From contig NZ_CP102602.1 in the NCBI RefSeq assembly GCF_024707485.1, positions 806,001 to 870,000 of the forward strand: DNA of 64,000 bases, read 5' to 3'. A program made the translations under genes and the position numbers. Under the pieces are notes generated by a model. The model did no database searches. It worked only from the letters and a program-made list of their open reading frames with translations, and was not told the DNA's origin. Positions 36,012-38,778 of the stretch are shown here, piece by piece. Each line of letters starts with the position of its first letter. Within the stretch, counting starts at the first letter, position 1. The stretch comes from Thermococcus thermotolerans (GTDB lineage: Archaea > Methanobacteriota_B > Thermococci > Thermococcales > Thermococcaceae).

Positions 36012-37718
36012 ATGCCGAAGTTCGACGTTTCCAAGGCTGACCTTGAAAGGCTGGTTGGAAAGACCTTCACCGTTAAGGAGTGGGAGGACCTCTTCCTCTA
36101 CGCCAAATGCGAGCTGGACGACGTCTGGGAGGAGAACGGTGAGATATACTTCAAGGCCGACTCAAAGGACACCAACAGGCCCGACCTTTGGAGCGCAGAG
36201 GGCATAGCGAGGCAGATCCGGTTTGCCCTCGGCCTGGAGAAAGGCCTGCCGAAATATGAAGTTGAAAAGAGCGACGTTACGGTTTACGTCGACGAGAAGC
36301 TGAAGGAAATCCGCCCCTACGGTGTATACGCCATCGTTGAAGGACTGAGCCTCAACGAAGAGGCACTCAAGCAGATGATCAACCTCCAGGAGAAGGTCGC
36401 CCTGACCTTTGGAAGGAGGAGAAGAGAGGTAGCGATAGGCATCTTCGACTTCGACAGGGTGAAGCCGCCGATATACTATCGCGCCGCAGAGAAGACTGAA
36501 AAGTTCGTCCCGCTGGGCTTCGATGAGGAGCTGACGCTGGAAGAAATTCTTGAGAGGCACGAGAAGGGCAGGGAGTACGGCCACCTCATAAGGGACAAGC
36601 CCCACTACCCGCTCCTCGTTGACAGTGAGGGCAAAGTCCTCTCAATGCCCCCTGTTATAAACTCCGAGATAACCGGCAGGGTAACCACCGAGACTAAGAA
36701 CGTCTTCGTTGACGTCACCGGATGGGATTTGAAGAAGATAACCCTTGCCCTGAACGTGGTGGTTACCGCCTTGGCGGAGCGCGGAGGAAAGATCAAGAGC
36801 GTTAAGGTCGTCTATCCAGACTTCGAGATCGAGACCCCTGACCTCACCCCGAAGGAATTCGAGGTCGAGCTGGACTACATCAAAAGGCTGACCGGACTGG
36901 AGCTGGGTGACGAGGACATCAAGAACCTCCTGGAGCGCATGATGTACCGGGTCGAACTGACCGATGGTAAAGCAAGGCTCCTCTATCCAGCCTTCCGCGA
37001 CGACATAATGCATGCGAGGGATGTCCTTGAGGACGTCCTAATTGCTTACGGCTACAACGAGATAGAACCGGAGGAGCCTGAGCTGGCAGTGCAGGGCAGG
37101 GGTGACAAGTTCGTCGAATTCGAGGACGCGGTCAGGGAGCTGATGGTCGGCTTTGGCCTTCAGGAGGTCATGACCTTCAATCTCACCAACAGGGAGGCTC
37201 AGTACGGGAAGATGCTTGCTGAGGCCGGCCGGGACTACTTCACCCACCCGCCGGCGGATCTCGTTGAGATAGAGAACCCGATAAGCCCCAAGTGGTCGGC
37301 CCTCAGGGTGTGGCTCACCCCCAGTCTGCTGGATTTCCTGAGCCAGAACACCCACGAGGAGTACCCGCAGAGAATCTTTGAGGTTGGAAAGGTCACCCTG
37401 ATCGACGAGAGCAGGGAAACAAAGACCGTGAGCGAGAGCAAGCTGGCGGTTGCCTTAGCTCACCCGCGCGTAACATTTACAGAGGCCAAGGAGATACTCG
37501 AAAGCGTTATGCGCCACCTCGGCTTCGAATACGCGCTGGAAGAAATTGAACACCCGAGCTTCATAGAGGGCAGGGTTGGAAGAATAGTGGTGGACGGAAA
37601 GGTGATAGGGATAATCGGAGAAATCCACCCGGCAGTCCTAGAGAACTGGGGAATAGAAATGCCCGTGGCGGCCTTCGAACTGTTTTTGAGGCCGCTCTAC
37701 AGGGAGCCCTATCTCTAG
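36012..37718 (+). CDS. pheT: Phenylalanyl-tRNA synthetase beta subunit
   Basis: 568 residues, the short archaeal form. The N-terminus MPKFDVSKADLERLVGK is typical, the B3/B4 domain that edits Tyr-tRNA lies at about 80-270, B5 (LDYIKRLTGLELG) follows, and the catalytic-like module ends with GIIGEIHPAVLENWGIEMPVA. GAGGTGATAAT precedes the ATG, placing it in an operon with pheS. Confidence 0.95.
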   Translation: MPKFDVSKADLERLVGKTFTVKEWEDLFLYAKCELDDVWEENGEIYFKADSKDTNRPDLWSAEGIARQIRFALGLEKGLPKYEVEKSDVTVYVDEKLKEIRPYGVYAIVEGLSLNEEALKQMINLQEKVALTFGRRRREVAIGIFDFDRVKPPIYYRAAEKTEKFVPLGFDEELTLEEILERHEKGREYGHLIRDKPHYPLLVDSEGKVLSMPPVINSEITGRVTTETKNVFVDVTGWDLKKITLALNVVVTALAERGGKIKSVKVVYPDFEIETPDLTPKEFEVELDYIKRLTGLELGDEDIKNLLERMMYRVELTDGKARLLYPAFRDDIMHARDVLEDVLIAYGYNEIEPEEPELAVQGRGDKFVEFEDAVRELMVGFGLQEVMTFNLTNREAQYGKMLAEAGRDYFTHPPADLVEIENPISPKWSALRVWLTPSLLDFLSQNTHEEYPQRIFEVGKVTLIDESRETKTVSESKLAVALAHPRVTFTEAKEILESVMRHLGFEYALEEIEHPSFIEGRVGRIVVDGKVIGIIGEIHPAVLENWGIEMPVAAFELFLRPLYREPYL

Positions 37719-37810
37719 TCCCTCTTTTTCATACTATTTTGAATCAGGATGCACATTATTTCAAAGTTCGTTAGGTTTGTCAATATCTCCGCGTCCCAGA
37801 TCATTTCCAT
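37715..37810 (-). CDS. Candidate small protein, 31 aa, antisense-convergent to pheT
   Basis: The frame ATG 37810 to TAG 37715 encodes a peptide that starts MEMIWDAEILTNL and ends LIQNSMKKRD: a short acidic start, a hydrophobic middle and a basic tail. GGGGGTGA lies six bases before the ATG and a TATA box (GATAAATAG, 37844-37851) about 38 bases before it. Promoter, ribosome binding site and frame therefore agree, but nothing about function can be said. Its stop overlaps the pheT stop codon. Confidence 0.45.
   Translation of the reverse strand: MEMIWDAEILTNLTNFEIMCILIQNSMKKRD
37722..37729 (+). terminator. T-rich terminator after pheT
   Basis: CCTCTTTTTCAT follows the pheT stop by a few bases. 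It also lies inside the candidate 31-aa gene on the other strand. Confidence 0.35.
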
Positions 37811-37843
37811 GCCTCTTCACCCCCAGATTTAGTTAATTCTCGC

Positions 37844-37851
37844 TATTTATC
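37844..37851 (-). promoter_or_regulatory. TATA box for the candidate 31-aa gene
   Basis: TTGATAAATAGCG on the minus strand, with a predicted start near 37822 adjoining the GGGGGTGA ribosome binding site. Confidence 0.35.
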
Positions 37852-37945
37852 AATCTTTCCCCACAACGATTGGACTGGTTCCAAAATTATAATTTATGTT
37901 TGTAAAGTATTTTGTCGATGTATCAATTCCGATAATGGGAAAGGC

Positions 37946-37952
37946 ATTTATA
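37946..37952 (+). promoter_or_regulatory. TATA box for truA (leaderless)
   Basis: AAAGGCATTTATACCC is centred 26 bases before ATG 37975, with no ribosome binding site between, so the mRNA should start at or next to the ATG. Confidence 0.55.
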
Positions 37953-37974
37953 CCCTCCCCCGGATTCAACAACC

Positions 37975-38778
37975 ATGCGGATGGCCCTGAGGATAGCGTA
38001 CGACGGTACTGCATTTTACGGCTTCCAGAGACAGCCAAACCTCAGGACAGTTGAAGGGGAGCTCATAAGAGTCCTCTCAAAGCTCGGGATAATGCGGGAC
38101 GCCGAGAGCTCGAACTTCAAGGGCGCATCCAGAACGGACAGGGGCGTCTCCGCGTTCTTTAACGTTGTGGCCTTCGACATTGATAGCAGACCGGACCTCG
38201 TTCGGGGTGAGGTTCTCAACCACCACCTAAAGGACGCATGGGTTCTTGGCGTTGCTGAGGTGTCCGAGGATTTCCACCCACGCTTTTGGGCAAGGTCAAA
38301 GACCTACAGGTACTACCTCGTTGATGAGGGCTTTGAGGAGAACCCCATGAAGGAATGCGCCTCAATCTTCGTGGGAAGGCACGACTTTTCGGCCTTTTCA
38401 AGGCTGGAACCGGGAAAAGACCCCGTGAGGGAGCTAACGAGGGTCGAGGTGAGAAAGAGGCATGGTTACTACGTCATAGAGCTTGAGGGCAAAAGCTTCC
38501 TCTGGGAGATGGCGAGAAGGGTAGTTAACGCCATCAGATTCTGCGGTCTCGGCCTCATGGAACCGGAAGAGGTTGAGGGGATGCTCTCCGGAAACTATGA
38601 GAAAAAGGTGCCCCCAGCGGCTCCAGAAGGCCTAATCCTCTGGCACATAGAATATGAGGGGATAAACTTCCGCATGGACGAAAGGGGGCTTAAAAAAGCG
38701 AAACGTGACATCTTTAAACGCTACTCACGAGCGCTTACGAGGGCGGCCCTTTTTGGGGACGTTCTCCTCAAGCTTTGA
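37975..38778 (+). CDS. truA: tRNA pseudouridine(38-40) synthase TruA
   Basis: 267 residues. RIAYDGTAFYGFQRQP is the TruA opening and the catalytic Asp is in GASRTDRGVSAFFNVV; FLWEMARRVV follows. It modifies positions 38-40 of tRNA anticodon stems. The start fits a leaderless mRNA; ATG 37981 is an alternative. The last 54 bases overlap the convergent helicase gene. Confidence 0.94.
   Translation: MRMALRIAYDGTAFYGFQRQPNLRTVEGELIRVLSKLGIMRDAESSNFKGASRTDRGVSAFFNVVAFDIDSRPDLVRGEVLNHHLKDAWVLGVAEVSEDFHPRFWARSKTYRYYLVDEGFEENPMKECASIFVGRHDFSAFSRLEPGKDPVRELTRVEVRKRHGYYVIELEGKSFLWEMARRVVNAIRFCGLGLMEPEEVEGMLSGNYEKKVPPAAPEGLILWHIEYEGINFRMDERGLKKAKRDIFKRYSRALTRAALFGDVLLKL

Follow-up and report, generated by a model that had tools for sequence, protein, structure and literature searches.

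A probable 31-residue protein gene convergent with pheT is conserved in the Thermococcaceae

We analysed a 64,000-nucleotide stretch of the Thermococcus thermotolerans genome (contig NZ_CP102602.1, positions 806,001 to 870,000), referred to here as the window and numbered from its first letter. On the plus strand pheT, which encodes the phenylalanyl-tRNA synthetase beta chain (Pfam tRNA_synthFbeta, B5, B3_4 and others), occupies 36012–37718, and truA, which encodes a tRNA pseudouridine synthase (Pfam PF01416), occupies 37975–38778. A preliminary description, made from the letters and their open reading frames, had placed an unannotated gene of 31 aa in the gap between them. We found this ORF on the minus strand at 37715–37810, stop included, where it begins with ATG, encodes MEMIWDAEILTNLTNFEIMCILIQNSMKKRD and ends with TAG. 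It is convergent with pheT and divergent from truA. The stop of the small gene (CTA on the plus strand, 37715–37717) overlaps the pheT stop TAG (37716–37718), as had been noted, and the two genes have 4 nt in common.

Upstream of the ORF, on the same strand, lie a Shine-Dalgarno element, GGGGGTGA (37817–37824), and a TATA-box-like sequence, ATTGATAAATAG (37843–37854), which contains GATAAATAG. Both were assigned from the sequence together with their enrichment across 86 homologues. The TATA and ribosome binding site sequences of the preliminary description are thus present and also conserved. The same description had held that such a set of signals is unlikely to arise by chance. In 41 of 3000 shuffles of the 350-nt context that kept its dinucleotides, an ORF of 28 aa or longer turned up together with a TATA-like box and a Shine-Dalgarno match of 5 nt or more, these criteria having been set after the ORF had been seen. 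This suggests that the signals are uncommon but by themselves only moderately unusual (about 1.4%). As judged from sequence, the decisive evidence for the small gene is conservation and not the signals.

Our comparison covered 94 genomes of Thermococcaceae and 21 genomes of the same phylum outside the family; the high-quality set consisted of the 74 family genomes with completeness of 90% or more and contamination of 5% or less. The peptide gave matches in 62 of the 94 family genomes at E ≤1, the DNA of the pheT-truA gap in 32, and truA and pheT in 91 each. One of the peptide matches, in G093 (E 0.23), contained an internal TAA and marks a spurious place; the true copy lies at C1:42514–42603. 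The stretch following pheT was then extracted from 88 genomes and, with two loci in G062, at 89 loci. Left out were G036, G049 and G088, where pheT was unmatched, and G010, G052 and G091, where the match to pheT breaks off at a contig edge or close to one. Of these 89 loci, 86 have a homologous open frame on the opposite strand, running towards pheT. The loci without it are those of G012, G035 and G085, and in G085 the stretch after pheT lacks a normal pheT tail and the copy adjoins truA on a separate contig without pheT.

A profile built from 41 sequences (A1) matched 87 of the 94 family genomes at E ≤2.6e-6, the match in G052 being partial and at a contig edge. Within the high-quality set 72 of 74 genomes matched, the exceptions being G012 and G035, and the remaining five family genomes without a match are 69–82% complete. 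Stops or frameshifts in relatives had been named earlier as the result that would speak against the gene; every profile match listed is free of internal stops. Among the 21 genomes outside the family the profile search gave no convincing match (best E 0.007), and those in G097, G099, G100 and G102 were judged to be chance (E at least 0.007, three of them inside frames of 442–617 aa). A tblastn search of plasmids and phages gave no match to the small protein. In a search for second copies the source genome held one copy of the gene. A second match in G024 (E 7.7e-4, 11 profile positions, in a 63-aa frame) was judged to be chance on reading the DNA, G066 has a second weak match (E 0.036) in a 62-aa frame, and G062, a mixed MAG, carries two good copies on two contigs.

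The best match in the 87 genomes lies at the pheT 3′ end, or one gene behind that end, or beside truA (in the fragmented G085). Genome comparison shows both this linkage to pheT and the single copy in the source genome. Measured from the pheT stop, the small-gene stop has an offset of −1 in 30 of the 86 loci. Beyond the small gene truA was found in 67 of 86 loci, or 68 with G064, where truA starts just before the fetched stretch ends. At 18 loci the small gene is at pheT but the next 1.5 kb or so, as far as the sequence was fetched, shows no truA and holds other genes, whose translations appear by eye to be threonine-dehydrogenase-like, ThyX-like and others (ThyX was confirmed by Pfam in G056 alone). 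At 11 loci pheT and the small gene are separated by a gene for a hydrophobic protein, and the small protein is still kept.

G035 and G012 are complete genomes without an intact copy of the small gene. The pheT-truA gap of G035 measures only 95 nt, and an antisense frame there (L212:1122–1325, minus strand) is open from an ATG. It retains the string SNVANFE but has other residues in place of the invariant Glu and of the Met of NFEIM. A profile search with E up to 10 gave no match to this frame, which is apparently a decayed, diverged copy of the small gene. The small gene is missing from G012, where 4 nt separate pheT from the end of a dehydrogenase-like ORF.

The preliminary description had proposed that relatives be examined for synonymous-biased change, and this is what we observed. 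Among 188 close pairs the differences at codon positions 1, 2 and 3 numbered 418, 320 and 1185, piling up at third positions, and the median pairwise dN/dS was 0.125 (166 of the 188 pairs, those with dS >0). A codon model fitted with IQ-TREE to 83 distinct sequences gave an omega of 0.134 (lnL −2545.3). With omega fixed at 1 the likelihood was worse by at least 172 log units (lnL −2743.4 at kappa 2 and −2718.0 at kappa 3.2 or 5), kappa in these null runs being set to the values given and not fitted. For comparison, a stretch of 21 codons close to the C-terminus of pheT gave an omega of 0.057 over 50 distinct sequences, a set from which 7 identical sequences and 29 without the ENWG anchor had been dropped. 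Over the 63-nt core of the small gene, stops interrupt the other two same-strand frames in 85 and 80 of the 86 sequences and the three opposite-strand frames in 43, 17 and 66. The comparison shows that the frame is coding, and the codon pattern indicates that purifying selection acts on the amino acids of the small protein.

Across the core (21 codons, 86 sequences) two residues never vary, Glu(−7) and Asn(0), corresponding to E8 and N15 in the window protein, and Phe(+1) and Met(+4), its F16 and M19, are found in 84 and 85 of 86. The ORF picking at the 86 loci demanded an N-[FY]-... pattern, so the invariance of the Asn was imposed in that set; an HMM search free of any pattern also returned 86 loci, all with N-[FY]-[ED]-[IL]-[ML]. 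In several genomes, among them some that we take to be Pyrococcus-like, the frame extends 69–189 nt into antisense pheT. Since these extended tails are poorly conserved, constraint appears to act mainly on the first 28 or so residues.

The start region is likewise shown by comparison to be conserved. The start codon is ATG in 74 and GTG in 12 of the 86 homologues; for G000 and G071 we took the first ATG, which aligns with the starts of relatives, in place of the second, which ORF picking had chosen. A Shine-Dalgarno match of at least 5 nt precedes 68 of 86 starts where shuffles predict 18.9, a count that is somewhat favoured because the starts were chosen partly by Shine-Dalgarno score. For GATAA[ACG] at 18–60 nt upstream the count is 53 of 86 against 6.2 predicted by shuffling, and for any TATA-like sequence it is 84 against 33.9, with 75 of 107 TATA-like occurrences sitting 37–43 nt before the start codon. 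A sigma-70 style promoter scan of the locus was also run, a model that is not applicable to archaea. By archaeal promoter geometry, the TATA spacing here would place the transcription start about 10–15 nt before the ATG. Such a start is in keeping with the median 5′-UTR of 16 nt given for T. kodakarensis in its transcriptome paper (PMC4247193).

We weighed these data against other accounts of the ORF. It could be a chance ORF or an annotation artefact, as the equally good-looking ORFs in 41 shuffled contexts might suggest, but conservation throughout the family and selection at the level of codons make this extremely improbable. It could also be incidental to, or merely helpful for, a regulatory RNA or antisense transcript acting on the pheT 3′ end. 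The convergent arrangement, with stops overlapping at offset −1 in those 30 loci, would suit such a transcript, and a scan of 37600–38100 for bacterial-type terminators, which does not extend to the T-rich terminators of archaea, returned none, so that antisense read-through into pheT is possible. However, the concentration of change at third codon positions and the low omega argue for a protein. The RNA folds no better than its shuffles (z 0.21), and Rfam gave two matches across 37400–38300, both outside the ORF and, at 16–17 bits, far short of their gathering scores (90 and 52). The protein is also kept at the 11 loci where another gene stands between pheT and the ORF. Given the codon pattern, the folding and the Rfam scores below gathering, we set the RNA explanation aside as very unlikely.

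Less likely again is a leader peptide or upstream element that controls truA or another neighbour. Although truA lies beyond the small gene at most of the loci counted above, the small gene points away from it, the 18 loci without truA in sight keep the small gene at pheT beside other genes, and what comes next on the strand of the small gene in the window is antisense pheT. Orientation and synteny led us to set this explanation aside as well. We regard it as unlikely, if less so than the RNA, that the small protein acts specifically on phenylalanyl-tRNA synthetase (PheRS). The near-constant linkage to the pheT 3′ end in the 87 genomes with a match (the truA contig of G085 included) would agree with such a role, but the overlap of the 3′ ends would by itself be enough to hold the two genes together, since a break at that point would harm pheT. 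Moreover, the linkage is interrupted by a gene at the 11 loci, and G012 and G035 retain pheT without an intact small gene. The reading that the preliminary description had put forward, a gene of 31 aa served by a promoter and ribosome binding site of its own, is supported by the open frame, the low dN/dS and the conserved start region, Shine-Dalgarno element and TATA-like box. We consider the ORF almost certainly a genuine protein gene.

To describe the protein we searched 41 members of A1 against Pfam, NCBIfam and PHROGs and found no meaningful match; scattered matches of one or two members had best E values of 0.044, 0.036 and 0.028. A sequence search of PDB chains with E up to 10 returned a single match, to a sulfotransferase (E 0.31), judged to be chance; this search reaches deposited chains, ribosomal proteins included, while unassigned density in ribosome maps is invisible to it. 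AlphaFold2, given 55 sequences, modelled a single helix over residues 7–30 (mean pLDDT 87.9, pTM 0.49). AlphaFold2 tends to predict helices when peptides are short. By permutation, neither conservation (p 0.43) nor hydrophobicity (p 0.48) showed significant periodicity in the helical range, and the strongest peaks, at 170 and 160 degrees, are more like those of an extended strand. The helix therefore stands as an AlphaFold2 prediction.

The small gene is presumably expressed, that is, transcribed and translated. It would form its own transcription unit, in which the TATA promoter and the Shine-Dalgarno element, the latter close to the presumed transcript start, would lead to synthesis of a peptide some 30 residues long. 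This peptide might fold as the modelled helix with a basic tail. The conserved surface, D-x-E ... N-F-E-[IL]-M, could then dock on a larger house-keeping protein or complex, of which the peptide would be a small subunit or modulator. We think it probable that this is a family-wide small-protein gene with its own transcription unit and a product predicted to dock on a partner; the docking mechanism as such we favour slightly less firmly. A bolder idea, which we hold to be doubtful, is that the peptide, about 30 residues long, specific to Thermococcaceae and overlooked even in model species like T. kodakarensis, is either a core subunit of a central machine, be it for translation, transcription or tRNA charging, or an obligate modulator of one. 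The core (about 37747–37789 in the window, minus strand) also contains D-x-E-x-L and, at a distance of nine residues, the similar N-F-E-I-M; these [DN]-x-E-x-[LM]-like stretches are possibly an internal repeat.

In our literature search we recognised no paper that names the small protein, and three motif strings were not found in the paper texts searched. Conserved, unannotated small proteins have been described in Methanosarcina mazei by Ribo-seq (PMC11456600). Likened by description, the small gene resembles these microproteins in being short and easily missed by gene callers, and it also has a ribosome binding site and is conserved, but it was found only in Thermococcaceae and is known from sequence. 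The zinc-finger micro-proteins of the Haloferax HVO_0758 type, described as having two C(P)XCG motifs (PMC10716476), are likewise archaeal and of the size class below 70 residues; unlike them, none of the 86 small-gene peptides shows the two motifs by eye. According to Jager et al. 2014, none of the 55 previously unrecognised small transcripts of T. kodakarensis has an ORF of more than 10 codons (PMC4247193). These orphan RNAs are small transcription units of the same lineage, but in this they differ from the small gene with its 31-aa ORF; the word pheT is absent from the main text of that paper. Our data extend the set of functional proteins that are too small for gene callers by one whose gene is present in almost all of the genomes compared from the Thermococcaceae, a major archaeal family. 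Some members of the family that carry it have good genetics, and E8, N15, F16 and M19, together with the two natural losses, make the role of the small protein directly testable.

Two neighbours of the small gene in other genomes were observed along the way. The intervening gene of G087 (L215:1929–2363, plus strand) encodes a 144-aa hydrophobic protein without a Pfam match, and its end is overlapped by the end of the small gene by 11 nt. Relatives of this protein (39–88% identity) occupy the same place in G002, G003, G047, G053, G064, G086, G089, G090, G092 and G093. In G056 the ThyX frame beside the small gene (L140:3–1421, plus strand, 5′ end cut) has a long in-frame insertion with LAGLIDADG_3; no N-terminal Cys of an intein is visible at the junction, and Pfam finds Thy1 and LAGLIDADG_3 together in the one frame.
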